Source: Isoetes taiwanensis (taxonomy: Eukaryota > Streptophyta > Lycopodiopsida > Isoetales > Isoetaceae). From it: 64,000 nucleotides of DNA. Below the pieces are notes generated by a model, which was given only the letters and a program-made list of their open reading frames with translations, had not been told where the DNA came from and did not search any database. How positions within the stretch are numbered: the stretch's first letter is position 1; each line of letters begins with the position of its first letter. The DNA is taken from positions 7,025,645 through 7,089,644 of the forward strand of contig JAJEKV010000062.1 in assembly GCA_021234155.1 (NCBI GenBank). The letters run 5' to 3'. The position numbers and the translations under genes are program-made. Shown one piece after another: positions 2,625 to 63,049 of this stretch.

Positions 2625-3459
2625 TGTTGAGAATTCAGCTAATAAGTCATCTGCATAGTCTACCTATGAGAAGCAGTGGCAGTAGGTTAGACCAACTTGT
2701 TCATTAAGTTATCTGCATAAGTTATCTGCATAGTTATCTATGAGAAGCAGTGGCAGTAGGTTAACTTGTAGATTATCATGTAACCTAAAGTACAGGAGAG
2801 ACATTGAGTATATGTTAAGATGAGTAAATGTTGAAGATTGAATGTTCAATGTTAACATGGATGTTAAGGAAAAAGGAGTATTTTGTTAACATGGGAATTG
2901 TGGAGGAAAGTTTAAATGGAAAAATATGTTCAATGGTCGAAAAGCCGATTTCCAGTGTTTGTCCTGTGGGATATTATCGAAGAGATGACAAACCGAGATT
3001 GGAAAGTAAATCCAATCCCATAACTGCCGGATTCATGCGTATAAGACTGATGAACTAGCAGGAAATGATTAGGTAGGTTGGATCGAGCTGTAGGTTCCGA
3101 AGTGGAGCCATAATCTCTCAGTCAAAGGATCTACAGTAATCAGGTCAATGCCCAATGAATAGTGCTTTATCTGCTTCAGTTTTTAATGGTTTAGACCATT
3201 GCAATCATTATTGACAACAAGCTTATTGTCATAGGATATCTTTGAATGTATTCATAAGCTTTGATTGTAGTCATGAACTTGAAGTATGATCATGAAGTAT
3301 ACATGATGATTATGATGTATACATGATCTAGTGAAAATTAGTGACCATATCTTGGCTTTTCACTAGATCATTATTTGTATTCTATTGTTCATAAGCTTGA
3401 AGAATCTTGCTAGACATCAATATTATATTTATTGAGTTTATTATTCTCAAGATCTAACA
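2625..3459 (+). repeat. Copia 5' LTR
   Basis: The LTR is 835 bp, TG...CA, with its partner at 7672-8507. It starts directly after TTTCT and ends one base before the primer-binding site. A 76-codon open frame at 2828-3058 occurs unchanged in both LTRs; it is most simply LTR sequence conserved because the copies are recent, not a gene. Short internal near-repeats (AGAAGCAGTGGCAGTAGG) occur twice. Confidence 0.95.
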
Positions 3460-3460
3460 G

Positions 3461-3472
3461 TGGTATCAGAGC
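3461..3472 (+). other. Primer-binding site, initiator Met tRNA type
   Basis: TGGTATCAGAGC lies one base after the 5' LTR. It is complementary to the 3' end of plant initiator methionine tRNA, the usual primer for Copia minus-strand DNA synthesis. Confidence 0.9.
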
Positions 3473-3479
3473 TAGCATT

Positions 3480-7400: not shown

Positions 7401-7658
7401 AATTGTGCACGTGATGGAGCCACTGAAATCATGACATACAGTCAAAGTTGCATAGCTATAGTGAAAAACCCTGTTCATCATGATAGAACCAAGCACATAG
7501 AGTTAAATATACATTTCATACGGGATTTGGCAGTGCAAGGTATTATTCAAATGAGATATGTTGATACTAACAGTCAAATAGCAGACATATTTACTAAGGC
7601 ACTTGCAGAAGTTAAATTCAGTAAATTTAAAGAGAAACTAAATGTGTTGGACTTATAA
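4497..7658 (+). pseudogene. Copia Pol (protease-integrase-RT-RNase H), broken
   Basis: The protease motif VVDSGAERS is at about 4524, in the same frame as gag after a single TAA. The integrase HHCC region reads LWHNRLAH...CEGCALGK (4900-5025), followed by HTDLCGPL and FTDDYSR. The frame then has stops at 5199, 5208 and 5367 (SP*QNG for SPQQNG) and shifts near 5490 and 5970. Reverse transcriptase runs from WIAAMNEELKSF (6160) through KTAFLNATLEEE to a stop at 6500, with the YVDD box intact at 6699-6710. RNase H reads AYSDADWGGD and SSAEAEYAA (7196-7350), ending with DIFTKAL. All domains are recognisable, but the polyprotein cannot be made in one piece. Confidence 0.93.
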
Positions 7659-7671
7659 GCTGAAGGAGGAA
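7659..7671 (+). other. Polypurine tract of the Copia element
   Basis: GCTGAAGGAGGAA immediately precedes the 3' LTR, the position of the plus-strand primer in LTR retrotransposons. Confidence 0.75.
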
Positions 7672-8507
7672 TGTTGAGAATTCAGCTAATAAGCATCTGC
7701 ATAGTCTACCTATGAGAAGCAGTGGCAGTAGGTTAGACCAACTTGTTCATTAAATTATCTGCATAAGTTATCTTCATAGTTTACCTATGAGAAGCAGTGG
7801 CAGTAGGTTAACTTGTAGATTATCATCTAACCTAAAGTACAGGAGAGACATTGAGTATATGTTAAGATGAGTAAATGTTGAAGATTGAATGTTCAATGTT
7901 AACATGGATGTTAAGGAAAAAGGAGTATTTTGTTAACATGGGAATTGTGGAGGAAAGTTTAAATGGAAAAATATGTTCAATGGTCGAAAAGCCGATTTCC
8001 AGTGTTTGTCCTGTGGGATATTATCGAAGAGATGACAAACCAAGATTGGAAAGTAAATCCAATCCCATAACCGCCGGATTCATGCGTATAAGACTGATGA
8101 ACTAGCAGGAAATGATTAGGCAGGTTGGATCGAGTTGTAGGTGCCAAAGTGGAGCCATAATCTCTCAGTCAAAGGATCTCTAGTAATCGGGTCAATGGCC
8201 GATGGAATAGTGCTTTATCTACTTCAGTTTTTAATGGTTTAGAGCATTGCAATCATTATTGACAATAAGCTTATTGTCATAGGATATCTTTGAATGTATT
8301 CATAAGCTTTGATTGTAGTCATGAACTTGAAGTGTGATCATGAAGTATACATGATGATTATGATGTATACATGATCTAGTGAAAATTAGTGACCATATAT
8401 TGGCTTTTCACTAGATCATTATTTGTACTCTATTGTTCATAAGCTTGAAGAATCTTGCTAGACATCAATATTATATTTATTGAGTTTATTATTCTCAAGA
8501 TCTAACA
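7672..8507 (+). repeat. Copia 3' LTR
   Basis: This 836-bp LTR matches the 5' LTR, with about two dozen substitutions and single-base indels seen by eye, clustered in the first 130 bp and around 8120-8260. It ends CTAACA and is followed by the target duplication TTTCT. Confidence 0.95.
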
Positions 8508-9487
8508 TTTCTATTCAACCTAAATCTCCTTCTGTCTTTGAGAATGCTGAAATTTTGTACCTTGATCAATGATACTTCAGCTTGTCCTGATCTTATGGAT
8601 AATAACATTATTGCTAGTTCTACAGAAGGGGAAGCCTTTGCTATTATTAAAAGCTTTTTCAAAGGTAAATCTTCTGGTCTGGATGGTCTTCCTCCTAAAT
8701 TCTAACTTCACTTCTGGAATATCTTAAAGGATGACTTTATTCTGTTTATTTTTTTTTTTTTGGACTACTAATCACTTGCATACCTCTATCTCAAATGGTT
8801 TAGTCTCTCTCATCCCAAAAGTCGACTTCCCTTCTCATTTCTCTGATTGGAGATTCACCTTTCTATGTAAGGCCTCCTATAAAATTTATGCCAAGATCAT
8901 TGCTCTGAGAATCAGGCCCTTCTTGCAAGCTAATATAAGTTTGAATCGATCTGCCTTTCTTCTTAACAGATTCATTTTGAACAGCTACATTCTTGCCATA
9001 AAAGGATTACATTGGAACAAAGTAAGTGGCCAAGACTATGTTCTTTTTAAATTGGATTTCAAAAGAGACTTTGACACTATTTCTTGGGAGTTCATTGACT
9101 TTGCTATGACTAAAATTGGTTTTGCTTTGAAGCTCAGGCAATTAATTATTGGTCTCAATTCTAGAGCCAATTCTGCTATTTTGATTAATGGATCCCCTTC
9201 CAACTTCTTCCGTCTTCAAAGAGGTGCGAGACAAGCATGATCTTTAGCTCCTTATCTCTTTTTAATTCTTGCTGGGCTTCTAACCAAATCAGTGCTATAA
9301 CATAAACATCATGGTAATGTTGAGTGTCAAAAGTTGCCAGATTTTGATATCTCTCTCTATCCTTCAATATGCTGATGATACTTTCTATTTCCTCAAGACT
9401 GATGATGCTAATATGAATTCCTTCATGGGTATCCTCAATCAATTCTCTAATGCTTCTGGTGTGTATATGTTGTCTTCACGCTGTTGC
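8508..9487 (+). pseudogene. LINE-A reverse transcriptase, middle segment
   Basis: This resumes LINE-A after the Copia insertion. It encodes GKSSGLDGLPPKF, then NGLVSLIPKVDFPSHFSDWR, ASYKIYAKIIALRIRPFL, YVLFKLDFKRDFDTISWEF (palm motif A with its aspartates) and FRLQRGARQA. A stop follows at 9238, and the catalytic YADD box is at 9368-9379 (QYADDTFYFL). A stop near 8703 and the stop at 9238 break the frame. A second insertion at 9488 interrupts the next part (NASGVYML). Confidence 0.85.
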
Positions 9488-11086
9488 TGTGATGCTCCCA
9501 GAACATATACGGCACCCGGCCGTATACATACGGGGACTTTCCCCTCCCATGGCCACCATTCGCCATGAGCAGGGCCCTCCGTCTAACTCGGGCCATCTAT
9601 GGAAAGATGCTCGAGTGAAGGACACAGAGGGATCATTCGGCCCACGCCTTCAATGGGGCTCCTATGTCGCGGAAGCGTGAATACAAGGTTAGCATACAAC
9701 ATAATCATATCATAAATACCACCACGAAGAGTGGCACATCCATCCAACTGATAACAACAGAGAAGATACATTTAATACTAGAGAAAACACCCCCCAAACC
9801 CGTGGTTCTACCCCTACCTGGACTCGGTGAGGATCGATTGATCTGGCTAGGTCTCAAGAGATCGCCAGACCGAAGCTTGACATGGCGCTATCGGCATAGA
9901 ACATCTACTAGGGTTGTCCACTCCATCCGCCCCTTTTGTGCACACTTTGCGGTCCGGTCGAATCATGCTATGGCATCACTATAGCCTTCCTCCGAGACGC
10001 AGACTGGGTATCACCCTTCGAGCCCGCTCCGGGGTTCATGAAGCCCCGTCCGATGAGAGGTCGTGGAAGTGTCCCCTTCCGGGATCACGGCCCATGAGTG
10101 AGCTAGAGAATACGTGCCGCATCACGACCCCCGCATCCATACGGAAACTTACTCACCCTAAATCTACTCAAAGCACAGGGGTGCCCCATACGGGTCACAC
10201 CTCTCAGCACCCGTGGAGTGTCGGACCCATACCCGCCCTCACGTGGACCCGCCTATCGGGCCTAGCCCACTGTAGGAGTCCCGGGAGCCTTGTATGTTCG
10301 TGCAAGACCCCACCCCCACTTCCCCCACCCGGTCCCTTCTCGGTGCTAAGCAATTTCATAGCATCCACGACTCGGTGGTCTCTTGTGTGCATGTGCCACT
10401 TTAATTGGGAATTAAAGGAGCTACTAGGAGCATACTAAAGCATAAGGCATAGGGGTCTCTACCCCTCTAATCCCCTCAACTACGGAAGGCTAATTGTAAA
10501 TACTTTCATAGATTCATCCATCCATAATAAACATAATCCATAATTGAAATGTAGTCCTAATTATCAAAGAAGGGTTAATCCTAAGCTAGAACAACCAGAG
10601 AAGACTCAGAGAACTTGACTAAAGCGCTAGCCTTAGAGATATCAAACTAGACTGTCTACTAACCCGAATTTCGACTTGATCCATTATCATGGGGTGGCTC
10701 CATCTTCTAAGGCTTGGGTGTTTAGCAAACTTGGGCACTCACAAACAGCCTTGACAAACTTGGGCGCCAAATTGCTCCTCCCCGCTCGATTTTGGGGTCA
10801 AATGGGACAAGGTTCAATGTTGATGCCCCAAGTTAGCATCCCCATCTTTGGCCAATCGAGTTTGGCCAAGTGGCTGTTTCCTAATCCATCCATTATCCTA
10901 ATTAATCCAATTAGAGATTAATTCCTTAATTATAGGTAATTAACCTTTAATAATTAATTTAGCATAGCTAAATTAATCCCTTTTAGGTCAACCCCCTAGG
11001 TTAAAATACCCCATGGTGGTGTACCTCTACTGGGTGACGTGTCCGTATATTTATGCGTATACCGTATAAATACTTGGAACGTCACA
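9488..11086. mobile_element. Solo-LTR-like insertion, 1.6 kb, in LINE-A
   Basis: It begins TGTGATGCTCCC and ends GGAACGTCACA, flanked by the 5-bp duplication GTTGC (9483-9487 and 11087-11091). TG...CA ends, a 5-bp duplication and no coding capacity point to a solo LTR, left after recombination between the two LTRs of a full element. The outer 25 bp on each side form an imperfect inverted pair (about 19 of 25 matching, ending TATACGG inside). This also allows a TIR element, but 5-bp duplications with TG/CA ends favour an LTR. The interior is GC-richer than its surroundings until about 10450. Open frames in it resemble nothing known. Confidence 0.75.
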
Positions 11087-12450
11087 GTTGCAAATGCTTC
11101 TTTCTCTTGATCCCAATCTCAAAAGTCTATGGTCTCCTATAGTTGACAAAATTAGGAAGAAGTTAAATCATTATAAAGGTTGCCTTAGTTTTGCTGGGAG
11201 AAGTATAATTGCTAATTTTGTTCTTGCCAGTTCTCATGTCTTCTATTCCTCATCTATGATTGCTCCTAAGATTGTTTATAATAAAATAAAAAAAATTATC
11301 AGAAACTTTGTTTGGCTCTGGTTAACTAGAGTACTACTACTAAAAACAAAAGGAGTGGTGGTATTGCTTGAAAAAATCTTCATGCTCGAGTTTGTGCTCT
11401 TGGTGGTAAATATATTTGGAGAGCCTTGATGTGTCTTGATATGCCAATGTCCTATTTTATCAACCATTGATTGAAAAAAAAACCATGTGGCTAATCATCC
11501 TTCTATTGATCACTCTCTGCCAAACTCTATTTTCAACAACATTTATCCAGCCAGTAATACCTCTCCTATCATGAGAAATCTAATCAAGGCTTGGAATCTT
11601 ATTCATCCCGTCGTTGATTTCACTCATGTGACTGATTTGCACTTGATATTTCTATTTTCTGGAGCCCTCTTTTCAAGGATCATCAATATCACTGCCTGGC
11701 TATTAGGCATCCTAGAATTTATAAGAAATGGTCTACTAAAGGTATCTCTTCCATAGGGATAGATAAGTGTCTTGGACTGCTTTAAGAAGATTGGTTGCTG
11801 GTGTTTCTACAACACTTATTTGTATATTATGAATATTATTCAAAACCTTGTCCCTAAACATATCTATTTGACTGCTCTAGACTAGAAATTGGATAATACG
11901 AGCTCTTATATGGTCAAGAAGATTTACAACTTCCTCAACAACTCAGATACTAGAGGTGTCTCGAAGTGGAGACTTTCCAATAATAATATGCTTAGATTGT
12001 TCTCTAATATCTGGAACTCATACTGTCATCCTAAGGTCAGTTACTTTATGTGGATCATTTCCCTTAGCAAGAGGAACCCTGCTATTTCTCCCTTGTGTCC
12101 CTTCATTGTAACCAAGGGTAAGATATGGAGCATATTTTTTGTTGTCCTAAACTTGTCTATTTTTTGCAGTGGTTTGATTCTAACTTCAATATTATACATG
12201 GCAACTCTATTTTGAGTTATATTCAAAATGATGATCCTTTCAAAAATACCATTATATTTTTGGCCATGTGAAATATTTGGAAAGGTAGAAATAGAGTGCT
12301 TTATAATAGAAAAAACCTTTCCATTATATGGATGCTTCATTTTCAATTTGATGTTGAATTGCTGACCACGGCTCATAAACGAGAATAGGGAGACAAATAT
12401 GATAGAAAATGGAACTAGCATGGAATTTTTACAGGTTCCTTTCAATTATA
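11087..12450 (+). pseudogene. LINE-A 3' part: RT thumb and zinc-binding domain
   Basis: The reading resumes as PNLKSLWSPIVDKIRKKLNH and FAGRSIIANFVLASSHVFY, the conserved post-palm region of plant LINEs. At 11900-12170 it becomes KWRLSNNNMLRLFSNIWN...CHPKVSYFMWIISL, the zinc-binding module at the C-terminus of plant LINE ORF2 (zf-RVT). The segment that normally holds YLG(I/V)P between YADD and this point is missing, so a deletion accompanies or precedes the solo-LTR insertion. No poly(A) tail is visible; the 3' end is estimated. Confidence 0.75.
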
Positions 12451-27597: not shown

Positions 27598-28383
27598 GAA
27601 TATTCTTTCTTAGAATGTTAGGGGAGTGGCTTCCAAAAGAAGTAGGTGTCCCTCTATCTATCTAAGTTCTCCATGGATTTATGTTGTTTTCAAGAGCACA
27701 AGTGCGGTAAAGGCGATGTTCAAAAGTTGGCTAACATTTTGGGGCGTGATTATAATGTGCTTGTGGCGGCTGCTGATTCTGCTAAAACAGGTGATTTTAC
27801 TGCATGGAAGCCCTCTTTGAATGTCACTTTCAATCAAGTGCAAAGATTCGGTCGTTGAATAATTGTTAAGTGAAAAGAGCGGGGGCAAGAATGTGGTTTA
27901 GTGAATGTTTATGCTCACAATTATCCGCGTCAAAAGGGAGCTTTGTGGGCCTCTCTTCGTCGCAAAGTTCTCAGGCTAGGCAATAATGTGGCATGGTTGC
28001 TCATTGGTGATTTCAATATGGTTGAAATTGAGGCAGACAGGTGTGGCAGGGGATCACAGGTGGTTCAAGAATTTGAACGGGAGCAATGGCAACGCCTCCT
28101 GCATGATTGTGGCCTTGTGGAGATCGAGGGTGATCAATCCTTCACATGGTGCAATGGATGGATAGGCAACGATAGAGCTTACGCCGGACATGATCGTGGT
28201 TATTATAATGCAATAGCTACTGATTTTCTTCAGTTGCAGAGAACTAATTTGTTGGATAGTCCAGTCTCAGATCATAATCCACAATGGTTCTCTACCGGAC
28301 AACCTCTATGGCGAAGAGCTACAAAAACTTACTTCAAGCTCAATACTAAACATTTGAAGGATAGTGAATTCATTGCAGGTTGA
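27598..28383 (+). pseudogene. LINE-B endonuclease domain
   Basis: The domain starts MNILS*NVRGVASKRSRC (Trp replaced by TAG) and continues, after a frame change, with QEHKCGKGDVQKLANILG. Then come VNVYAHNYPRQKGALW, LLIGDFNMVE (the GDFN box, about 28000-28028), DQSFTWCNG and SPVSDHNPQW (the SDH catalytic box near 28260). The 27901-28383 part is an uninterrupted frame. It once supplied the nicking activity for target-primed reverse transcription. Confidence 0.88.
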
Positions 28384-28754
28384 TGTTCTCATGAATTCTC
28401 CGTGGCATGGCCAGTATTGTTGCTGCTCTCAGGGCTGTTAAATCCTTTGCAAAGCAGTTGGGTCATGCACAGGTGGTCCAGACTAGAAACCACTTAATCG
28501 GGTTGTATCAGGAGTTACAGAGATGTCGCACTCTTGCCCCTTCTTCTGGTATTAGAGATAGCAATATTGACATAGATTAAAGCCATTGAGACGGCTCATG
28601 TGAATCAAGCGTGGATAAAGGCTGGACTAGAATGATTATCTGGTGATAGATGGTCTCACTTCTTTTTTTGGGTCGTTAAGAGAAGGCGTATGATGGCCTC
28701 TATTAACTCCCTTATTTTGCATGATGGTTTCAGAGTGTTCTGATCCAGTTCAGT

Positions 28755-30470
28755 TTGAAGCAGTATCTTCATGACCACTTTTCCTCATTTTTTTCCACAC
28801 ATCAGTTGCCCTTTCAGAAGGATATGCAAGCTACAGTCTTGTCGAAGGTCCATCCCATCGTGGCAGCGGAGCAACTTGCACACCTAGAATCAAACATCAC
28901 CATCAATGACTTACATTCAGCTGCTTCTCTTTTAAAGAAAGACAAGTGCCCTGGCCTAGATGGTTTTCTAGTGGAAGTTTTCCAGGAATATTGGGATTGA
29001 TTGGGTTGCGATCTTTATAATGCTTTCTGTGAGTTTCATAGGTTCAGAAGTTTAGATAAGATCCTCAATACTGGCTGCATTTCTCTTATTCCCAAGTGTA
29101 AAGAGCCGAAGACAATATCTGACTGGCGCCCTATCATATTATTGTCTTCCGTGTATAAAATCTTTGTGAAGGCCCTTGCAGACAAAGTGCATGATGTCTT
29201 GGCTGTATCAATCTCTCCTACTCAATCTGGATTCTTGCCAAGGAGGAGCATTTTAGACAATGTTGCTGCTTCTTATGAGGGTATGTATTGGGCCAGATTG
29301 AAAGGTCAACGTATACTCTATCTTAAATTAGATTTTGCCAAGGCATAGGACAGTGTGGATTGGGAATTTTTGGAAAAATGCCTCGTCTTAACATTGGGCT
29401 TTGGTCAGCAATTCACCAGTGATGTTATGAAGCTCCATATCTCGACACGGTCTACTGTGTTGTTTCAGGAGGAACCCTCCACTATTTTTTCGGTTGGGCG
29501 GGGTCTTCGCCAAAGATGCCCATTAGCTCCACTTTTGTTCACAATAGTAGTTGAGGTCCTCTCACATCTATTTGCTAAGGCCGTGCAGGATGGGATAGTG
29601 CAGGGGTTGAGTATGGAGGACGGTTCACAGGAAATTTGTAACCAGTATGCTGATGACACGATTCTCTTTCTTGTTGCTGATGCGGATAATCTTCAGAATG
29701 CAAAGCTTCTTCTTCATACTTTCTCTTTAGCATCTGAAGTTCTTGTTAGTTGGCCAAAGTGTTCTGCATTATGGATGCTTGATGGGCTTGTGCCTCCTTG
29801 TGTTGTGGATTTTCCTTAGAAGGTGCTTCCTCATGGGAAGGCTACTAAACTTTTTGGTATTCCTGTGGGCATTCATATTTCTACCTCCGATGCTTGGGGT
29901 ATTATCATAGAAAGGTTGCGAAAGTATTTGTTTTGGTGGAATACTGCTAAGCTCTCTCTGCCAGCGCGAATAACTGTTGCTAAGCATGTTTTCAGTAATT
30001 CCCACGACTATATGACCTCTGCCCTTGTGGCTTCTCAATCAAAATTTCAGGTGATTGTTATCATTGTCCGTAATTTTATTTGGGGTGGGACTGAGAAGCA
30101 TGTTGTGGTCAAGATTGCATGGTCCAAATGCACCAGACCAAAATTTGCAGGTGGTTTGGGGATGACAGACTTCCATCTGCAGAGTAAGATTCTAATTTCT
30201 AAGTTCATTTGGAGGATCCTTAAGGATATGGTTGATTCACCTGGAGTGCGGTTGGTGAAGCAGTCACTTGCACATTGTGTTCCTTTTGAGAAAGCTTCAT
30301 TAAAACTGCTTCTTTCTTGGGGTCTCTTTTATCAGCTATGCCCTTTTCCTAATGCCTCCCCTTTTTTGAAAGGCTTGCTGGAGTCTTGGGACACAATATG
30401 GACCTTATTTCGTCGTATTGATCTTGCTGCATGCCATCAGTTGAGTGCCCTTGTTAATGGATACCTGTAG
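28755..30470 (+). pseudogene. LINE-B reverse transcriptase domain
   Basis: The RT blocks are in order: DKCPGLDGFLVEVFQEYW (28940), SLIPKCKEPKTISDWRPI (29080), QSGFLPRRSILDNV (29225), LKLDFAKA*DSVDWEF (29325, Tyr to stop), GLRQRCPLAPLLF (29500) and QYADDTILFL with YADD at 29646-29657. The post-palm blocks LFGIPVGIHISTSDAW and LSLPARITVAKHVF follow, to FIWGGTEKHVVVKIAW. Stops at 28998, 29347 and 29817 separate the open pieces. The catalytic aspartates remain. Confidence 0.9.
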
Positions 30471-32760: not shown

Positions 32761-34320
32761 TGTGATACCCGTGGCCAAGCTCCTTATGTAGGCTGCAATT
32801 GTGACACATTGTTAGCCAGGGGATCAAATCTCATGGGTTGTTCTGTGCCGGTGCGTGCACTGAAGTCTCTGAAGAGCGTGACCCTACCCAACTGCTTATC
32901 TTCTTTTTTATTTTGGGATGGTGTTGGTAGTTGTGCCGGGAAGCCGCATGTAACGCCGCATGCGGCGTTCCCTTGCCGCTTGCGGGTCCCCTTCCGGGAC
33001 TATTTTGAAATCCGTCCCTCCCTGGTTGCGATTTGAATTTCGTACTTCAAACTGTTCAGACTGGATGGTGGCTGTGGCTATGGTGTCTGGCCGCATTCCA
33101 TCCTGATTTTTTGGATTTTCGGCCAAAATGTTTCCTTCACTCTATGTTTTGAGTCAAAAATTTTAGGCAGAGAGAGACATCTTTTCGATGATGGCAAGCA
33201 GTATTCTCCTTTTCGCCACAAGCAGGTTTATTTACTTTTCTCTCCTCCGGCTACATGGGTGGAGCTTGAAGCGTATTACATAACTTATCTCCTTTTCTTT
33301 TTTGTTACAGCTTAAAGAAAACTCTGTAGTACAAAGACAAGACTTGAAGAGTTCTTTGCCGTACAAAGACAAGTGTTCTTTGAACGTTCAAATCAAAGGC
33401 AAAAGCACCGTTTTTGGAGCCCGCAACATTCTGTTTCTTTCACGGCACATAGAGGTTGGTCTTATGATAGAGCCGTTTCTATTTCTTCAATGGCTCCAGT
33501 TGAATAATGGTACAAAGCCTTGCTTTATCAGGCCTGAATTCTTGCTTCGCCAGTTCTCTGAATTTTGCCACGAGCATGTAAATCCTTTCTTCAGATGCAT
33601 TCTCTGTTTCTTCCAGCGTGTTTTTTCAGAGGTCTTCATTCATCTAGAGAAGAACGTTTTGCTAATCTCTTTCTATTTTTGCAGCTTCAAGAGTTCGGCA
33701 AAGGGCTTAGGCTATGAAAAAATGTCCAGGTAAATTCTTAGATGTTTGTTTTTTTGATAACTTTTGTTTAAGATGTTCTTCAAAGAAACGCCAAGGAATA
33801 GCCAAATTGACCTCAAGGAGTAGCCAAATCGACCTTAAAGAATAGCCAAATCGACCTTTTGCTTCCAAGTCTTGTACCAGAAAGCCTTGAAAATCCAACA
33901 ATCTGTCCAGTTGAACCCATGTCAAACAAACCTGCAGAGCTCAAAAATCCTGGTAAAATCTTGCTTTATCTCTCAAAAAAATAGAACGCAGATCTTTGTT
34001 TGCTTTGTCTACTTTATTTCATCTGATGCTATAATATTTCTGGATTTTCACTTTTTTAAGCCTAAGCCCAGTGGTTTTGACAGTGATCTTTTAGAGAATG
34101 TTTGATCGGCATCTCTATCGCAGGTTCTCTGTTTCTTTAAAAGCTTTAGAGCAAGCAGAGCTCCGATTGTGTAATGAGTCTTTTGAAGCATCGTTTAAGG
34201 TAACCCGTCATCCAGTTCTCTTTTTAATCTTATTTGATTTTCCTTATATATGGAGTGAGATATTTGAGTTCAGCTCTAATACACTTGCAACTGAAATATT
34301 CGTGCAAGAAGACTAATTAG
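32761..34320 (+). other. Exon-like segments, gene not recognised
   Basis: Several open stretches are bounded by good splice-like signals: TTACAG before 33311 with an open frame to about 33452; TTTGCAG before 33684 with CAG/GTAAAT at about 33730; a Pro-rich open stretch near 33852-33952; and TCGCAG before about 34124 with AAG/GTAACC near 34199, coding FSVSLKALEQAELRLCNESF. The intervening DNA is T-rich like plant introns. Positions 33787-33860 hold three copies of AATAGCCAAATCGACCT. This could be a decayed or non-coding spliced gene; no family is recognised. Confidence 0.3.
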
Positions 34321-36270
34321 CAAGAAGTGCTTCTCAATTGCGTCATAGTTCCAGCTGGAAGCATCATGCAATGTAATCCATCTTTATGTTTTTTTGCTTT
34401 GTTGCCTTTTTCTGTTGTCAAATAGCCCTTTTCTAAGTTTCTTTGTTTGGATTGCTCATCTTGAATAAGTCCATCCTGCATGCAAAAAAAAAAAAACAAA
34501 AACTCTTGAGAGTTGAGCAGTTGATCTGTGTAGAAGTAATCTAACATTTTCTATGTTTCAGATAAATCTTCATTTGTGAACTGGAGCAACAAATTGATTT
34601 ATGAGTTCTAAAAGGTGTAAAATGCAACCACATATTACCGCCTTCTATTTTTCTCTAATATTTGATTTTCCATGTTGTTTTTCTTTTTCTGTTTCTCTAT
34701 GCGGATTGCTCATGCTTGAAAAAGCCCACTATTCATTAGTTTTAGAATTTGCAAGCACCTACTCTTAGAAGCAATATTGTCATACCATACATATGTTGAT
34801 TGCAAAGAACAAATCGAAGCTTCATTGCATATTGATCTATCTTTCATTCCGCAATAAGGTATACAGGATCTCAATTTGGTACCTTAGAGCCAAGTTGGTG
34901 AAATAAAGTATGTGTGATTACAGATAACAGCAGAGCAAACATGAGGTTTCTTATCATTTGTCATCGTTAGAAGCAAAAGCACTTCACAAGCATTATTCCA
35001 CAATATTTTGAGCAGGGTTCATTGTGTTAGACTTTATTCCACAATATTTTGAGTGGGTTCATTATGCTAGACACGAGGTCCTTTTTATTTTAGACCTTGG
35101 CTTCCCTTCACAATTGTGCAATACTGTATTTAGTGAACTTCGCAATTAAAAATGCAAAATCTGTAAAAAAAAAGTGTTCCCACTTTGATATTGGAGCATG
35201 CTTTAGATCTTGGCTGAATTTAGCGTCCTTATCAACGTGTTCAGGATAAGAACCAATTTCTCTTGCATGGCCCAATTTAGCATTGTCCTTACCAATGCGC
35301 AAAAGGTAAGAACGATTTCTTTTGCATGTTTTTGCTCTTCTACATTAATGTTCTAATGATCTACATTGTTGGTCCATGTGTACAGGTTATGAACAATGGA
35401 TTTGTTACATGTTTTCAGGAGTTGAATCAGCAAAAAGAGTAACTAAGAGATCTGGTTTGTTCTTGAAATCTATATGTGTGCCCTTAATTTAAATATATGG
35501 CTATGTCAACGTGGTATTATGATATGTGTGTAAAACTCTTCTTTCTATATTCCTCTTTTTGTTCATGATTTGCTCTCAGGGGCTTCATTTTGCTGTTATA
35601 CTTGTGTTCCAAACTAGGGCATGGCTTAACAATCACCTACTCCACAAGGTACACCTTCATTTTTGGAAGATTTCTTAGTTTATTATATTATTTTCAAAGC
35701 CTTGGGATATATTTTTATGTAGTTTTCATAAATTCAGAGAAAAGACGAAAATGGAGCCGGAGTGAAAGAGCATAACGAAGCTTCTTGAAGATCCTAATAT
35801 TAGGGATATTTAAAAAGTCCAAATATTGGACTTAATAGCATGCTGATGCATTGTGGCATATCCATGTCACAATGTTTCATTTTGAATTGTGCTACATGTG
35901 CCCGAAAGGTAATCAACTAGAATTTATGCTAAGATTCTACAAGAAACAAGTACAAGTTTTCTTTTCTCCTTTGTTTCTTTAATTTAGTAGTTGTGTTTGC
36001 ATCCTTACTTTTCCACACTCCCCATAACGGGGCAGAGTTGTTGCTTCTTATTATGCAAGATATTGAATTGTATAGACTTGCATGAATAACATTTTTAATA
36101 AAAATGCTTATTATTATGATACAACTTCTTCGTTACTGATTATTATTTCCTCTTAATTGTAATTTGGCTTTAGTCACGGGAGAAAACATTGCACATGCCA
36201 TTTATATAAAACATTCACAAAGAACTCGCATTGGTTATAAGCATAACATAAATTTAAGTAAGTGCACAAA
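34321..36270. other. Intergenic, AT-rich, one 40-bp tandem repeat
   Basis: Two near-identical 40-bp units (TTATTCCACAATATTTTGAG...) lie head to tail at 34993-35032 and 35034-35072. Otherwise no gene or strong signal is seen. Confidence 0.6.
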
Positions 36271-36493
36271 AGAGGCAATTGTGTAATTTCTTTGTACAAG
36301 ACACTCACAAACAACTCATATTGGTAGCGCATAAAGGTTGTGCCTAAATATGCCTATACTACATGCACACCCATACATAGCCAAGGCAATTGTGTAATTT
36401 ATTTGTACAAGACACTCACAAACAACTCACATTGACAGCGCATAAAGGTTGTGCCTAAATATGCCTATACTACATGCACACCCATACATAGCC
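36271..36493. repeat. Tandem duplication of a ~110-bp unit
   Basis: GGCAATTGTGTAATTT(C/A)TTTG through CACACCCATACATAGCC is repeated twice with few differences. A degenerate earlier partial copy (AACATTCACAAAGAACTCGCATTGG) lies at about 36210. The unit is non-coding. Confidence 0.85.
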
Positions 36494-36641
36494 TAACATT
36501 GTCGGGCACCTCTACCCAATAGACAACCAATGGAATAGCTAAAGCTTTTAGTTTAGGTTTAGGGTTTATAGATTTAGGTTATAGAGTTTATTATATCATC
36601 CAATTCAACAATGGAATTTTTAAGATTTATCAAATGAAAAT

Positions 36642-36715
36642 ACAACCGCTAATACCCATTAGTTCAGAATTAAAGGTGACACAACCATTAACACCCATTA
36701 GTTCATAATTAAAGG
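36642..36715. repeat. 35-bp direct repeat
   Basis: ACAACC(G/A)(C/T)TAA(T/C)ACCCATTAGTTCA(G/T)AATTAAAGG occurs at 36642-36676 and 36681-36715. Confidence 0.85.
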
Positions 36716-38639
36716 TTTAGGGATTAAAAAATAGCAGATTTAGGGTCTAATATCATTATCATCATGAATTACGAAGAACTAAGAGGGTGTAACATACATC
36801 TCATAGATCGAGTATGCAATGGTAGATATCCATGTCTTCACATCGTCTAATATATGTTTCTTAGAAAAATTGGATGGGCGTAGACATGAGTTACATGGAT
36901 GGCATGACTATGCATAATTAAAAATAACGATAAAATCATATTCTATTCTATTCTTCTTATGGAAATACAAAAAAGTAGTAAGTTTTGCAGTAAATCGAAA
37001 CATATGATTGAAACTTCATATCTCATATACTCGCCACACTGAAGTCTATGTTCCATTACCCATTCTATCTTACAGCATGCGTTCCATTATTCCTACCACG
37101 CACCCAAGGGTATTGCTCGACATATCTAAGCCAAATCTTCACATTTTCACCTAATACATCCACTTATTCTTCCACAACTATGCCCGGCATCGCCGGGCAC
37201 ACGTTTCTAGTGCTGTTGTATGTCATCATATAGATCGACATAGGGTTCACATCTAAGTGGGTGTGATAGAGTTTCTATCAGCATGTGGGAAGTAGCAGGC
37301 TGCCATATAGAGAGGGTTGCCACTGCAGTGTTGTACGCACACCTATAGGTACCGGTTGTGCTTCTCTGTCTTGTACAGGTAGACTGATTGTGTCAAAGCC
37401 ATCCAGTAGTAACAGGTGACCCCCCTCCCCCCTCCCCGGTCTTCTCTTTCCAGTGCACTCATTGAAGATTAGCGCTAGTATCCTGGCAAGTCGGATAGCA
37501 TGTGTCCTGCGTTCTCCCAAGTTTCCATAAGGAAGATAATGTTCGTATTGGCAGCAACCAAGTTCAAACTATTGCCCTTTTGACATGGGGAGCAATTCTA
37601 GGAGACGATGCATATGCACAACCCCAATTTGCTATTAGAAGTTGCAGCTGCAGATTCGGTGGATGCAACACAAGAAGGGGCTAGAGGTAGAGGCAAAGAT
37701 GCAAAGTGTGCATGCAAAGTGTGCATGCAAAGGCGTGTGAAGCAACAGAGGCGGAATGTGCGCTTGTAGTAGGTGCAAAGGCAGGGGGCATGGGTCAGCG
37801 GTTAGGGCCACAATAGGAGGGCCCACGAGAGTTTACTGGCTAAATGAGTAGCGTTTTGGCGCTTGGAAGCTTGTGATTAATAATAAACTCACTATTGATT
37901 AGATTTTGAATATTTTTCTCCATGTGTACACGCATGGGAAGTCCTTCTCTAGAGTTTTGTACATTGATTCTAGAAAAGCTACCGTATATATTTTACTTCC
38001 CACTTAAGTATTTTATTATTTATCTCCTGCCAGTTCTCCACTTTATCAGAGTGCGTATTAGTATAAAGCACCCTCTACTGCAAAAGCATGGTTCGAACTA
38101 AAGCAAACTGCAAGGATTTATCTAGCTAGTGTTAGGTCATGTGAATATATTCCTTTTCCTTCTTCGAGTGCATGTGAAGCTTTTAATCATGATTCACCTT
38201 TCTCAAACAATGCCCTCGTGGAAAGGCTAGAAAAGGAATTTTGCATGAGAATAATGGAGAAGGAACTTCATTCTTGCAAAGAGCAGTCTCCCGATAAAGA
38301 GATGGAGGTGGAAGAGCTTCCAATCGCAAGATCGAACAACATATTATGATGTCCGACAAATGCTTGGGCAAGTGTCTTCAAAGGAATTCATCGTAGTCCA
38401 CCAATGAGCCCTCCAAGGGCAAAAGCTCAATCAAGAAAGAGCAAAAGTGAACAATTGCCTATAAATGTTAAGAGGCAAAAAGGGCTCCATTGGTGGTAAA
38501 AGTCATTGATCAAGGTTCAATCCATCTCGAGAAGATCAAGAGCCTCATCCAAATAAAAACAAAGAAAGACTCTATGGTTAAGTTCAAGGGTAGCAAGAGC
38601 CGCAACAGCCACCAAAGCCAACAAGGAGAACTAAGTGGA
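36716..38639. other. Unassigned; shares sequence with 62 kb repeat
   Basis: Most of this stretch has no recognisable gene. From about 37940 it aligns with 62080 onwards: ATTTATCTC followed by TATAAAG.(A/G)CC.T.TA, then GCATGGT.(C/T).AACTAA. This marks the leader of the repeat that carries the histone H3-like pseudogene. Positions 37700-37735 repeat GCAAAGTGTGCAT. A CCCGGCATCGCCGGG palindrome is at 37183. Confidence 0.55.
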
Positions 38640-38965
38640 AAGTGAAACTTGGGATTGAAGCCTCCGTGAGATTAAGAAGTATCAAAAAAAACATTAAATT
38701 GTTTACCATACCTCCATTTGTCAGGTTAGCCTGAGAGGTTCTAGGTGAATGTGGAAAAATTTTTTACACCTCATATTGATGCAGAGGCGACAACCTTGAA
38801 TGCTTTTCAAATGGCCATGATAATAATTGCGATGGGTTTGTTTGAGGACTCGCAACTTGCAGCCATACATTTCAAGAGAGTCCATATCTTACCCAAGGAT
38901 ATGTGCTTGGTCTTATGCATTAGAAATTCCAAGTACTATGGTCATAATTTAGAAGATAAAGAAGC
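38640..38965 (+). pseudogene. Histone H3-fold pseudogene, CENH3-like, copy 1
   Basis: The translation aligns with the H3 histone fold. ATTAAGAAGTATCAAAAA codes IKKYQK (H3 IRKYQK). Then, with a frame change, come IPPFVRLA*EV (H3 LPFQRLVREI), AEATTLNAFQMA (alpha-2 start) and GLFEDSQLAAIHFKRV (38835-38882; H3 GLFEDTNLCAIHAKRV) followed by HILPKDMCLVLCIR. At least one frameshift and one in-frame stop kill it. Three features lean to centromeric H3: Val in PFVR where canonical H3 has Gln, a longer loop-1 spacing between the REI and ALQ positions, and DAEA just before alpha-2 (CENH3 TAEA; H3 has QSSA). The assignment within the H3 family is inference. Confidence 0.75.
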
Positions 38966-40470
38966 AAAAAAAAAGGGAGCTTCGAAATTAATTTAGCATG
39001 CAACTTCAAAATTATAACCATTCGAATCTTCTTTTCTTTTGAAATGCTTGTAAATGTTTTTATTTCCCAACATATGTAATGTGTTTTTTTTCATAATGTC
39101 TTCCTATGAATTTAAAGTATTTCATAGATCTTGCGTGGTATTTGGTTGAAGATAAGATAATACAAGTAGAGAAGATACATTGCTCTCATAAACAACAAGC
39201 TTTGAGTGGTGTAAGCCTCAGCGTCGTGTGCTCAAACCCTAACCCTAAAGCATATGAAGGAATATCTTAAACGACTTTCATCTACTCTATTTCTAAAACC
39301 ACAATCGTTGTTTTCTTTTGCACTTATACGCATCATTCTAGATCTTGTATCACCTTGTATATCTTGTGTCGCCTTTTGATATGGATTGTTTTGCGAAGCT
39401 TTTGGAATGGTATTCATTATCTCCACATGCAAATGAAGAGTTACATAACATTTATCCTTTCTATTTTAAGGAGATGAACATGATCTTCAATAGGCATCAG
39501 CTCAGATGCTATGACAATTTTGTTTTTGTACTGTTTATATTCAAGCGACAAGTTTTGGGGTTATTTCATGCCTTTTCCTAAATCTGCATTGGAGAAAGCC
39601 ATAATGCATTTGCCTCCAAAACCTTTTTGAAGAATGCGTTCCGCACAACATCAGCACAACACGGGGTTCCGAGGAAAATTATTTAATTCCAATTGTTAGT
39701 GTCTGTAATTAATGTTAATGGTGGTTGTATGTCATTTATTAATGGTTATATTGTATGTTGATTGTGAATTATAGCTTCTTACTCTGACATAGTCTGTGAA
39801 ATGTTGGCGATATAAAGTTGTGCATCTATCTATCAATACTGTGTCAAACAGTTCTATCTTGTTGTGCATTGGTCACAGTTCTAAGGGGTGTCTTCATTTG
39901 GCCTGATTTTTTTTATTCAATGTAGAACATTTTTGGTCAACATTACTTCAGTAGGCAAGTTAGCTGTGTTATTTATATAAACGGCGAATGGAGAAACTAA
40001 TAAGTCCACTAGTTAAGGATTAAAGGCCTTTATTAATAAGGTGATATATCGTGAAGACATTGGCTGAATGATTAAGCTGTGATCTAGCAGATTGATGTTG
40101 GCGTGATAAAAGCTTTAAGACCCTGTCCAGAATATGGTTTTTTTACAACTAATTTTCCTAGAGAAGTATCTTTGGTACCATTATATTCTGAATTGGTTGT
40201 TGCATCATGCTAGTGGCAGGGGCCAGGGACTCCCAATGGTTGAGGCAAAGCATGCCTTGATTTAATTTAATTTAGTAGTTTAACATCATACCACTTTGGC
40301 AGCATCCCTTCTGGGGACTATGCCGATTATGACGAACATATGATGAGACTCGCACTAACCTATGCACACACATTACATATGATGGCTTAGGAATGCTGTG
40401 GTGACAAAAGTTAGTAATCGATAGGGCACTTAAATAATTAAATTAAATGTGCAAAAGCCGAAAAAAAAAA
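38966..40470. other. Intergenic, no gene recognised
   Basis: Only short frames are present. AAACCCTAACCCTAA at 39235 is two telomere-type units, too short to mean much. Nothing else stands out before the H2A promoter. Confidence 0.5.
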
Positions 40471-40528
40471 GGTGGCCATTTATAAAGACCCGTATGGAAG
40501 GAAGCGTGAGAATGTGTTTCTTTATTGG

Positions 40529-40571
40529 CACGTCAGCAATCCAAGGCGGGAGTACACGTCATCGATCCGGG
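40529..40571 (+). promoter_or_regulatory. Two plant histone type I promoter elements
   Basis: CACGTCATCGATCCGGG at 40555-40571 matches 16 of 17 bases of the plant histone type I consensus (hexamer ACGTCA plus octamer CGATCCGCG). A second, weaker copy, CACGTCAGCAATCC, is at 40529-40542, and an ATTGG (reverse CCAAT) box precedes it at 40524. Such elements drive S-phase expression of plant core histone genes. They sit about 145-185 bp before the H2A start codon. Confidence 0.8.
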
Positions 40572-40609
40572 CCACTCCCCCGCCATTTTCTAATTTGAAC
40601 CTGCCCTAC

Positions 40610-40617
40610 TATTTAAA
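40610..40617 (+). promoter_or_regulatory. TATA box of the H2A gene
   Basis: TATTTAAA lies 98 bp before the start codon and about 40 bp after the type I element, the usual order in plant histone promoters. Confidence 0.6.
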
Positions 40618-40714
40618 CCTCTGCATTCGACATTCGTTTACTCTGCGCTTGCCCCCTCTACTCCGTCGATCGATCCTGAAAACCCAAGTATTTTCTCCAC
40701 ATATCTTCATTTCC

Positions 40715-41293
40715 ATGGCTGCCGGAGGTAGAGGAAAGACTGTTTCCCGCAAGAAGGCCACCTCCAGGTCTTCCAAGGCCGGGCTTCAGTTCCCCGTCGG
40801 AAGAATCGCTCGCTTTCTTAAGCTCGGGAAATATGCTACCAGGGTCGGATCTGGCGCCCCTGTCTACCTTGCAGCAGTTTTGGAGTACCTTGCAGCCGAG
40901 GTAAATTTATTCTTTGCTTTCTTCTTAAATCAGCATTAGGCTCTGCAATTATTTAATTCGGAATCTTGCTTCATATGGTTGATCTTTGATGTACTGGTTC
41001 TTCTTTGTTTTAATCGCTTTCTGGTACTTGATTTTTTCATTTTTCAGTTTTTGTTATGACCTAACTAAAAAGGACATTTGCTGTTGCAGCTTCTTGAATT
41101 GGCTGGAAATGCTGCCAGGGACAACAAAAAGACTAGAATAATCCCTCGTCATGTTCAACTGGCTGTCAGGAACGATGAAGAGCTGAGCAAGCTGCTTGGT
41201 TCTGTTACCATAGCTAGTGGAGGAGTTCTCCCCAATATTAATGCTGTGCTTTTACCCAAAAAGGTATCCCACTCCAAGGACGCTTCAGAGTGA
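40715..41293 (+). CDS. Histone H2A, two exons
   Basis: Exon 1 is 40715-40900 (62 codons) and exon 2 is 41090-41293, giving 129 aa. The intron is GT...TTGCAG in phase 0, between LAAE and [14 protein letters not shown], the conserved plant H2A intron site. The histone fold is intact: [48 protein letters not shown] and [18 protein letters not shown]. It forms the H2A-H2B dimer of the nucleosome. The C-terminus ([14 protein letters not shown]) lacks the SQE(F/Y) end of H2A.X and the SPKK motif of H2A.W, so it is a canonical-type H2A. Unusual residues are Leu instead of Val at the exon junction and Ser in RVGSGAP (usually Ala). ATG 40715 is chosen because MAAGGRGK matches H2A tails; the frame is open upstream only by chance. 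Confidence 0.97.
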
Positions 41294-42030
41294 TATCTTT
41301 TTTTGAATTATGGTGTTTTTTAACACCACCTATAAAAGAATTTTTCTCTCCTCTTTGCTTAGTCTATTTGCTTGAGAAGTTGGAAAGGCTTGCAAACATA
41401 CAAAATCATAGTCTGCAATTGTGCTTTTTACTCGCCCTTTTAATTCTGTACATCTGTTGCGAATTGAATCAATTTTTATATTGCAATGTTTAGAAATAAG
41501 TGATCAGAAAATAGTACAAACGCTTTTTGCAGCAAGCGGCGGTTTCTGTTTTGTTTATAAACTTGTATTCATATATTGCCTTCTAATATTTGTCTATCAT
41601 GTTCAACAATTTTTTGTGGACTTCTAATAACATGGCATGTCGGCATAGTGTGTGGTTTATCGCAAGGTAATGGAAGTTGGATATTGATATACTTTTTTGA
41701 CAAAATGGGTTTTTATTTAAAATATAACTTGTGAATGTAAGTTGGAGATTGATATACTCTGTTGACAGAATGTGCTTTTATTTAAAGATAAAAACATGCT
41801 TGAGAATGTAATATGGATATTGATATACTTTGTTGACAAAGTCTATTTTTTTTTAAATGATAAAAAAAATAATTCGTACTATGTTTTGTAGGTCGAACAT
41901 CTTGTGTAGGTCGTGGATTGACAAAGTCAACAGCAGATATGTAAGTAAATAACAAAAGCATGTGAGTATTAGTTTAAAAAGTATAAACATGCATGATTAG
42001 TAGAAGACTGAAAATATTGGCATTCTAATG
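41294..42030. other. H2A 3' flank and intergenic DNA
   Basis: This is non-coding. GGATATTGATATACTTT(G/T)TTGACA(A/G)A recurs three times (about 41670-41700, 41745-41770 and 41815-41840), each followed by a T-rich stretch. This gives a loose 70-bp tandem repeat. Confidence 0.6.
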
Positions 42031-42032
42031 TC

Positions 42033-42040
42033 TATATATA
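42033..42040 (+). promoter_or_regulatory. TATA box of the GDSL lipase gene
   Basis: TATATATA ends 36 bp before the start codon, implying a very short 5' leader. Confidence 0.5.
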
Positions 42041-42076
42041 TGGAACTGTGTTAAAGAGAAATCCATTGTGTTGTAT

Positions 42077-43483
42077 ATGGCGTTAAAGTTGCTGGCCTTG
42101 TTGATGGTGTTAATTGCCAGGGGAAGTTGCCAAAATGAGCTAAATGTGCCTGCTATGCTTGTATTTGGAGATTCAACAATGGATGTGGGCAACAACAATT
42201 TTCTCCTCACCCTTGTGAGAAGCGACCATGCTCCCTATGGCAGAATTTTCCCAGAGGGAAAATCCACTGGAAGGTTCACAGATGGAAAGCTCTCTATTGA
42301 CTATATAGGTTTGAACAAATTGAACTTTTTTTTTTCGTGTTGATGTTCCTCCTGCTTTCTTATGATTGTAATATTTTTTATGCGCAGCGGAAAAGTTGAA
42401 TTTGTCTTATCCATTACCCTACCTGGACTCAAGAGCAAAGGGCAAGAACTTATTAAATGGGATCAACTTTGCCTCCTGCGGATCGGGTCTGCTGGATTCC
42501 ACAACAAATATACTTGTAAGTTTACAGAAGATGTTGAGAGAGTATTCTTTACAGAACATTTGTAAGTTTATAGAACATTTACATTTTTAAGAGTAGAAAA
42601 TTTGTGCAGAATGTCATAAAATTCAGGGAGCAGTTAACCTGGTTTGACAAGTACAAAGCCCAACTGGTGAAATTAGTGGGAAAACGCAGATCTGCTTCAA
42701 TTATATCCAAAGCATTATATGTGGTAGGCACTGCAAACAATGACTACATCTACTACAAGCAAAATTCTGCAGTCTATCCCAAATACAACACTGCTCAGTT
42801 CACAAGCCTGCTGATCCAAAATATGTCCACATATCTGGAGCAAATATACGCAAAGGGAGGACGGAAAATTGGTGTCCTTACCGTTGGTCCATTAGGCTGC
42901 CTTCCAGCCGAGAAAAGTGCTGCAAACAGACCACTTGATCCAAAATGCTTAGATGATGTAAACGCGGTAGTTGAATCATATAATTCTCAGCTCCAGGATT
43001 TGCTGCAGACTCTTACATCCAAATTGAGCGGATCTAAGTTTGTATATTTGGATAGCTATAGCATTCTTCTTGATGCAACTCTAAATCCGGCCAAATATGG
43101 TACTTCACCTCTCATCTTATTCTTTGCTGATATGTTGAAAGAAAAAGCATAGAACTGTACTATGTCAACTAGTTATTGCTAACAAAAATAAATTGGTAGA
43201 TGGACAATGAACCTTTAACGCTTGCAGATAACTTCTATTATACTTCGTACATGATGTTCACTAATTATTTGAGCTTTTTGTTCCAGGATTCAAGATTTCA
43301 AATAAAGCCTGTTGTGGCACAGGCCTCACCGAGTCCGGTCTCACATGCAATTTTCTCTCTCTAGGCACCTGCAATGACTCGTCAAGTTACGTGTTTTTTG
43401 ATAGCTACCATCCCACAACAGCAATGGACAAGATTATAGCAAATAAGTTCTACACTGAAGCAAAATATAAATTTCTAGGATAG
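42077..43483 (+). CDS. GDSL-type esterase/lipase, four exons, secreted
   Basis: Exons are 42077-42308, 42388-42515, 42610-43099 and 43287-43483, all with GT/AG introns (phases 1, 0 and 1), giving 348 aa, the usual family length. Residues 1-19 (MALKLLALLMVLIARGSC) form a signal peptide, so the enzyme is secreted or apoplastic. Block I is FGDSTMDVGNNNF with nucleophile Ser33. Block II is GINFASCGSG (102-111). Block III is GTANNDYI with Asn164; the usual Gly two residues before it is Ala162. Block V is FFDSYHPT with Asp322 and His325, completing the catalytic triad. Such enzymes hydrolyse ester bonds in lipids, cutin or cell-wall acetyl esters; the substrate is unknown. Exon phases match other plant GDSL genes with five or fewer exons. 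Confidence 0.93.
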
Positions 43484-61990: not shown

Positions 61991-62159
61991 CCAAATGTAA
62001 ACTTTTAGTGAGTTTGGCGATAATAAGATATTCTTTATTGCTTAACTTTTTCTTGTACTTTTTGTGTGTCAAGTTCTTTCTAGTGCTCCAACATTTGGTT
62101 CAAAAATTACCAAAGATATTTTCATTTTAATTCCATTGTTATTTATCTCTACCAAATTC

Positions 62160-62950
62160 TGGCCCATTTTGCCAAAGTGTTTGTAGTATAAAGTGCCTTT
62201 TATCGAGAAGCAAGCCATGGTCTAACTAAGCAAATTGAAAGGTTCACCTAAGTGTTCGTGAGGGTCAAAGAATACATTTTCCCACCTCCCCTGCTGGGAG
62301 GAGACACACACACACACAATAACACACACACACGATAGAGAATAAATGGCATTTTGATAATGGCCAACAAGATATTTAAAAACTCAAGACAAGGAATGAA
62401 ATGGAAAGGAACTACATCTAGTGTACATAGAGAGGTCTCTCACGGTAAGGAGAGAAGAAGAAAAACGAAAGAGCTTCTGTGAGATTGGAGCTGCATTAGA
62501 CACGAATACATTTCTAAAGTACATGGCTCTTACATCTAATAATTACTGGCCACATATATATATATATATTAGAGGGGTGAGGTCACCAAGAAAGAGAAAG
62601 CTCAAGGCTACGAAATGTAAAGGAGGCACCAAGTGGCGAACAAAAACGCAGGGAAGTACAACATGAGGAAGCGAAAGAAACAAGTGCCCATCGTGGAGTT
62701 TGTAGCATAAAGATCGTGAACCACCAACAAGAAAAAAATAAGCGGTGAGAAGAAACTTGGTATTAAAGCCCATCCCAGAAGATTAAGAAAACATCGAAAG
62801 CTAATCGAAGTTGGTTATCATACTCGTACAACATTCAAGCAAATTTCTGAATGCTCTAGATGGCAAAAGAAATAGCCGCGAATGGGTCTATTTGAGGACT
62901 TGCAACTTGGTACCATACATGCCATGGGATGATTATGCATAAGCATGCAA
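62160..62950 (+). pseudogene. Histone H3-fold pseudogene, copy 2, with shared leader
   Basis: The leader (TATAAAGTGCCTTTTATCGA at 62188) aligns with 38070. Positions 62590-62660 are Lys/Arg-rich (RKRKLKATKCKGGTKWRTKT), as in an H3 tail, though this is weak. Positions 62840-62930 encode GLFEDLQLGTIHAM, matching GLFEDTNLCAIHAK of H3, after CTGAATGCT, which parallels TTGAATGCT in copy 1. Relative to copy 1, about 70 nt of the loop-1 region are deleted. It has stops and shifts throughout. Copies 1 and 2 share non-coding flanks, so they descend from one already-dispersed unit. Confidence 0.7.
62303..62345. repeat. (CA)n microsatellite
   Basis: ACACACACACACAC with one interruption, followed downstream by a (TA)n run at 62552-62569. 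Confidence 0.95.
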
Positions 62951-63049
62951 GGTTTTGATTCACGCAGGGCCAGATCGGCGTTACTGGCCCTAATTTGGAA
63001 AATGACTGATCGAAGCCCACCAGGAAATAAAATGACTAATCAAGCCTAC

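Follow-up and report, generated by a model that had tools for sequence, protein, structure and literature searches.

Remnants of histone H3 in the window

The window, a 64-kb stretch of the genome of Isoetes taiwanensis, contains a fragment with the histone H3 fold that is detected by a plain H3 query (E = 4e-8). The fragment and its surroundings relate to two groups of dispersed sequences treated below, the F2 repeat family and F1, an H3-bearing Ty3/Gypsy chromovirus. The features of the window that bear on these are:

9487..11087, minus strand: F1 long terminal repeat (LTR) remnant (blastn against L069, L070 and L074)
at least 34309..42584, no strand assigned: segment holding the H3 fragment, duplicated on contig C927 at 96-98% (blastn to L073)
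37972..39089, plus strand: decayed copy of F2 ORF1 with some 5′ leader (blastn to L082, L004 and L007)
38088..38126, plus strand: remains of the N-terminus, MVRTKANCK, with a degraded start, MVRTK, at 38088 (translation)
38633..38776, plus strand: alpha-N, alpha-1 and part of loop 1, with IPPFVRLA and an internal stop (tblastn with F2 proteins)
38784..38975, plus strand: alpha-2, loop 2, alpha-3 and C-terminal extension in a single open frame, GLFEDSQLAAIHFKRV (tblastn; tree)
62102..63004, plus strand: second, older remnant of F2 ORF1, with MGLFEDLQLGTIHA at 62882-62923 (blastn)

The two peptides singled out in an earlier note on this DNA are both present in the sequence, in two different frames. 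IPPFVRLA is in frame 2, within 38528-38776, and is followed by a stop; GLFEDSQLAAIHFKRV is in frame 3, at 38784-38975. At least one stop and at least one frameshift lie between them. The description of a broken, non-canonical H3 situated in repeats is borne out. With L082, an open-frame relative from the same genome, the match reaches E = 1.5e-24. The limits given earlier, 38640..38965, do fall on the fragment but are too narrow, the real extent by blastn being ∼37972-39089. The alignment with L082 spans 37972-38975 (60.5% over 1020 bases, E = 2.5e-55), and the match continues to 39076 in L004 and to 39089 in L007. The piece at 38784-38975 is 61% identical to L076 and L082 over 64 amino acids (tblastn).

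A second fragment, previously only hinted at, was located at 62102-63004. It aligns with L082 in two blocks, 62102-62818 (56.6%, E = 7.6e-14) and 62825-63004 (64.9%, E = 1.3e-11), and also with L076 (62136-62948) and L077 (62118-62948) by blastn. The limits of the duplicated segment, 34309-42584, are those of the C927 stretch that was fetched (L073), and the true extent is at least as large; part of the segment is doubled again within L073. The F1 LTR remnant matches L069 at 79% over 9487-10475 and at 66% over 10922-11087.

Several other features were observed. A two-exon H2A gene (40715-40903 and 41075-41263) is found ∼1.6 kb downstream of the H3 remnant and also in the C927 duplicate; its exon 1 alone is below the Pfam cut-off. 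By eye, 2625-8507 is a copia-like element with terminal repeats of ∼835 bases that are 97% identical and with gag, integrase and reverse transcriptase (RT)-like open frames between them, and 27874-30467 has open frames resembling a LINE-type endonuclease and reverse transcriptase. A tandem repeat at 24168-24481 (164-base unit, ∼1.9 copies) lies inside a longer duplication, 23855-24650.

The F2 repeat family compared with CENH3

The dispersed repeat F2 comprises a leader, an ORF1 that carries an H3 fold and an ORF2. In an assembly of 1,658,258,908 bases and 1110 contigs it has at least 178 matches, obtained by scoring 150 of 7640 candidates. Open copies of ORF1 encode a protein of ∼275 amino acids (∼273-291), which consists of a MARTKQTAR-type start resembling that of H3, a spacer of ∼145 residues in most copies, the H3 fold and a short C-terminal extension. 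Of the 12 regions fetched, seven keep the frame open all the way from the MART start to the end of the H3 fold. The exact MARTKQTAR start is found in six of the eight copies with a visible start (L075-L078, L084 and L006), and the remaining two, L080 and L082, differ by one residue. The position of K9 is occupied by isoleucine in seven of these eight and by threonine in one. L006 has a stop soon after the start, and the Pfam Histone match to this copy has an E value of 6e-29. Stops are present in many F2 copies outside the top-scoring rows.

ORF2 lies downstream of ORF1, on the same strand and within 6 kb, at 34 of the 60 best-scoring ORF1 places, and in none of the 60 is it upstream or on the opposite strand (the best 60 of 178 ORF1 matches were compared with 150 of 162 ORF2 matches). 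The distance between the two frames is 735-1262 bases in 33 cases and 4145 bases in one. Repeated sequence covers 10.6 kb or more in the copy on contig C1045. For six of the 40 leader places listed, comparison by eye shows the leader together with a 3′ segment of the repeat, both on one strand and within 4.4-11.4 kb (C1045, C907, C908, C1103, C1063 and C106).

The pieces of F2 that were read yielded neither RT nor integrase nor LTR. Downstream of one copy on C1045, L087 has no match to the F1 gag-pol or integrase and L089 has no long open frame. A tblastn of the whole window gave no F1 gag-pol or integrase remnants beside the window copy at an E of 1e-3 or better, and no same-strand pairs that could represent LTRs were seen by eye within F2 copies (40 of 575 candidates with a leader query and 40 of 1412 with a 3′-part query). 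One F2 ORF1 is followed 12 kb downstream by a gag-like piece, in L091 (Pfam gag E = 0.012, below the cut-off), which was considered as a clue to an F2 pol region and set aside. It probably belongs to another element, since comparison by eye of 40 scored places, of 4218 candidates, showed it next to no other F2 copy. Just downstream of an F2 copy, C1045:6604445-6604747 and 6606600-6607050 are two places of a repeat with a gag-like end, 98% identical over 303 bases; of the 40 places scored, none was seen next to another F2 copy.

The earlier note had read the fragment as centromeric H3 (CENH3), on the basis of PFVR in place of PFQR, a longer loop 1 and AEA before alpha-2. PFVR is indeed present in the window fragment. 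It is consistent with the F2 family form, PFAR, and one F2 copy, L081, itself displays PFVR. Loop 1 is longer than that of H3, as had been claimed: between fixed anchors it comprises 22 residues in the two F2 relatives measured, 18 in H3 and 19-20 in three CENH3s. The length comparison proposed earlier sets the F2 relatives apart from H3. The excess of four residues is also outside the one to two residues by which a CENH3 loop is expected to exceed that of H3. Nor does F2 show the H3 loop length and the near-identity over the fold expected of a canonical H3, as its fold is 57-62% identical to human H3 with a 4-residue insertion in loop 1. H3 position 84, in loop 1, is isoleucine in nine of nine aligned F2 rows and alanine in the window piece; tryptophan at this position, a mark of CENH3 judging by the three CENH3 rows compared, is absent.

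In the tree, which had been suggested as a check, the window piece is within F2 (97/90), the CENH3s form another group (87/84) and F1 is on one side of a branch (82/78), with bootstrap values that had not settled. In AU tests computed with the window piece and F3 (see below) left out, a clade of F2 with CENH3 is not rejected (p = 0.063) and a clade of the F1 and F2 histones is weakly rejected (p = 0.043). Protein queries of the genome, which were swamped by other H3s or came back empty, identified no Isoetes CENH3 gene.

Descent of the window fragment from a CENH3 gene captured by a repeat appears quite unlikely. The PFVR/PFAR motif, the lengthened loop 1, an ATAL that resembles the AEAL of CENH3 and the AU result are in its favor, but the fragment and its relatives do not have the loop-1 tryptophan, the loop has 22 residues rather than 19-20, six of eight F2 copies start with MARTKQTAR, H3 chains rank best among the PDB chains listed and CENH3 stands apart from F2 in the free tree. 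The CENH3 reading is therefore not upheld, although the AU value speaks against its rejection. Given this AU value, and with no CENH3 of the genome itself found by the protein queries, F2 might still have an old CENH3 origin. It had also been remarked that pseudogenes of a single-copy centromere gene spread through repeats would be unusual; the spread through repeats is confirmed, but ∼150 scored places, rather than one, do not fit a single-copy CENH3 source. An ordinary processed or fragmentary pseudogene of canonical H3, with no link to mobile elements, is hardly credible. H3 genes are multi-copy, with at least 15 intact canonical ones in this genome, and H3 retrocopies are common in eukaryotes, but the closest relatives of the remnant are F2 open reading frames with a longer loop and a C-terminal extension, and the remnant matches F2 over 1020 bases that include sequence outside the H3 fold. 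The window fragment is probably a dead ORF1 copy of the H3-bearing repeat F2 and not a CENH3 retrocopy.

A third H3-like group, F3, was read in one copy, L088 (C907:28948430-28948860, 431 bases). Its loop-1 segment has 39 residues, ∼20 more than in H3, and it displays CENH3-like residues around loop 1, TRFTADALDALHEAAE. With a CENH3 query, 43 of the 150 rows listed score above the first canonical H3; in 33 of these 43 the match starts at query residue 5-8, as in L088, and it is by match start that these rows are alike.

The H3 fold of a Ty3/Gypsy chromovirus

A canonical H3 query detects, among the best 150 of 9022 candidates, at least 15 intact canonical genes and at least 135 further rows that are 71-86% identical; 51 of the 135 non-canonical rows have open frames of at least 400 amino acids. 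Queries with other core histones give far smaller numbers: H4 has 69 candidates and 43 matches in the genome, and H2A has 103 candidates, with 78 matches of which many are single exons. Among the three core histones tried, H3, H4 and H2A, the expansion is specific to H3, because the first-look candidates number 69 for H4 and 103 for H2A against 9022 for H3.

F1 comprises at least three subgroups of an LTR retrotransposon whose 5′ open reading frame terminates in a near-canonical H3 fold. In the ORF1 protein scanned, an N-terminal part with no Pfam match is followed by a basic stretch and then by the H3 fold (Pfam Histone, E = 4e-41). The fold is 77-85% identical to human H3 in 22 sequences. 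In a full copy of 13.1 kb, C974:15271966-15285078, the H3 open reading frame is between two LTRs of ∼1606 bp with the ends TGTGACG...CGTCACA. The pair has 74 differences in 1580 aligned sites (MAFFT), or 92.8% identity by blastn with gaps. The element is flanked by a 5-base target site duplication, CCGGC, and has a purine tract before the 3′ LTR. Adjoining the 5′ LTR is TGGTATCAGAGCC, which presumably is a primer site of the tRNA-Met type. The H3 frame is followed, in the same orientation, by ORF2, gag, protease, RT, RNase H, integrase and a chromodomain. Pfam matches include RVT_1 (2e-38), Ty3_capsid (5e-16), RVP_2 (4e-13), the integrase zinc-binding domain (8e-18), rve (8e-8) and Chromo (2e-8). 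The features by which a Ty3/Gypsy chromovirus is recognized, i.e., LTRs, target site duplication, primer site, gag, protease, RT, integrase and chromodomain, are thus all found in the C974 copy, the one F1 copy in which the complete set was read. Collinearity among three F1 loci extends over 8.4-8.6 kb, at 89-90%, and in L054 a gag frame directly follows the H3 frame. In two further subgroups the N-terminal part is 43-46% identical to that of F1a and ORF2 is 44-49% identical.

F1 and F2 show a weak kinship in ORF2 (13.8 bits, compared with at most 3.5 in 200 shuffles), which suggests that they may be related elements. As the clade of F1 and F2 histones is weakly rejected, there may have been two separate captures of H3.

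The H3 fold is encoded within the LTR element and has a low dN/dS among copies. In ten copies of F1a, picked by similarity to an H3 query and by an open frame, so that dN is biased downward, dN/dS is ∼0.03 in the histone part (mean dS 0.57) and 0.10-0.11 in the N-terminal part (mean dS 0.93), the latter being absent from the query used for picking. Seven F1c copies also give 0.03 for the histone part. Seven F2 copies give 0.29 for the histone part, and 0.44 (sums) or 0.59 (median) before it, selection on F2 being weaker. The F1 H3 looks preserved by selection. The eight H3-H3′ contact positions listed for the comparison are conserved in all 22 F1 rows; the listed DNA-contact positions are kept at a mean of 0.91 in F1, 0.56 in F2 and 0.59 in CENP-A. 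We infer that the F1 H3 may have retained the ability to pair with H4 and to assemble into tetramers.

Known systems and possible roles of an element-borne H3

H3 sequences are described in hAT transposons of Dothideomycete fungi, as H3L in Pyrenophora tritici-repentis (PMC3538342) and in Pseudocercospora fijiensis (PMC6710886). As in the Isoetes case, a mobile element carries an H3 coding sequence that has been multiplied to tens or hundreds of copies, and ESTs exist for the Pyrenophora H3-like gene (PMC3538342). The fungal elements, however, belong to the DNA transposons and have a hAT domain and inverted repeats. In F1, an LTR retrotransposon, LTRs and RT were found in the copy read, and Pfam gave no transposase in the proteins scanned. 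In P. fijiensis all H3 copies except the original gene are described as inactivated (PMC6710886), whereas the F1 H3 forms the C-terminus of a fused open reading frame with low dN/dS in the subgroups tested. The Isoetes case is new with respect to known transposon-borne H3 in its element class, its kingdom, the fused open reading frame and the low dN/dS.

With the Ty3/Gypsy chromoviruses of plants, among them the Tcn1-like elements that PMC2864245 describes from non-seed plants, F1 shares LTRs, the order gag-PR-RT-RH-IN and a chromodomain after the integrase. It differs in its additional 5′ open reading frames, the first of which ends in the H3 fold. Additional frames in such elements are described there as of unknown function or env-like (Athila), and the phrase histone H3 is absent from the main text of that paper. 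Orchid Gypsy elements with an m6A demethylase frame (PMC9289625) have also gained a host-type domain in an extra frame, but the domain is a different one; in the main text of that paper, histone occurs twice, in connection with marks bound by chromodomains and with demethylation and not with a captured histone. Virus-encoded histones, as covered in a review (PMC9145170), are similar to F1 in that a selfish genome encodes a core histone. One scan of viral contigs gave a single giant-virus-like contig, L090 (IMGVR_UViG_3300033144_007251), whose similarity to F1 ORF1 is confined to the H3 fold (residues 310-400, 37%). A viral origin of the element H3 was rejected, this being the single viral match and restricted to the H3 fold. 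By eye, one open reading frame of L090 has apparent H2A-like and H3-like folds in tandem.

No published LTR retrotransposon carrying a histone was found among the top results of the literature searched, most subscription papers being outside its scope. According to PMC8566536, the I. taiwanensis genome measures 1658.30 Mb, with 204 scaffolds and a further 909 unplaced contigs. The authors identified repeats similar to plant proteins and excluded them from their repeat library, and histone appears nowhere in the main text of that paper. Such filtering of protein-like repeats could hide H3 elements, which therefore may be more widespread.

A mechanism can be proposed mainly for F1. The element would produce an H3 of its own, joined to an element-specific domain, and the protein may pair with host H4 and enter nucleosomes or tetramers. 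An F1 H3 that does not have the tail with K9 and K27 might, speculatively, tether the integration complex to chosen chromatin. Alternatively, and equally a matter of speculation, chromatin with F1 H3 on the element might escape host silencing by H3K9 methylation, which would fit a tail-less F1 H3 and the replacement of K9 by isoleucine in seven of eight F2 copies with a visible start. The chromodomain of the integrase may recognize chromatin of either the host or the element. F2 would be a relative of F1 in which H3 has drifted further, with a longer loop 1 and fewer DNA contacts.

Two other accounts have to be set against a working histone. The element-borne H3 might be a passenger, a captured fragment amplified without function in the manner of the fungal hAT H3, for which PMC6710886 and PMC3538342 provide a published precedent. 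The F2 dN/dS of 0.44-0.59 before the histone part and the many broken copies agree with this, but the F1 histone dN/dS of 0.03 at a mean dS of 0.57, in picked copies with the downward bias described, does not, nor does the occurrence of one fused layout in three F1 subgroups, two of them at 43-46% to F1a, with ORF2 conserved as well; a passenger is on balance unlikely. It is unlikely that the H3 domain acts in the particle, binding nucleic acid or helping to package it, instead of being a nucleosome component. Histone folds bind DNA, and the domain is in a separate 5′ open reading frame with a basic linker, but the listed H3-H3′ positions, fully kept in F1, would not be needed for DNA binding alone.

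As a tentative hypothesis, which we hold a little less probable than its negation, a chromovirus lineage in a lycophyte captured H3 as a working element protein. This tail-less or re-tailed H3 would form nucleosomes with host H4 and would steer integration or escape silencing by H3K9 methylation. It would since have diversified into F2, with its stretched loop 1, and perhaps into F3, with its 39-residue loop-1 segment and CENH3-like surroundings. The fragment in the window is probably what is left of a decayed H3-carrying repeat, one branch of the expansion of H3-bearing repeats in Isoetes, and not a dead centromere-histone gene. Chromodomain retrotransposons read histone marks. If the hypothesis is true, a retrotransposon with its own histone would be a selfish element that builds part of the chromatin and does not merely read it, and Isoetes would offer a naturally occurring collection of H3 variants in which the tail and loop 1 are altered.
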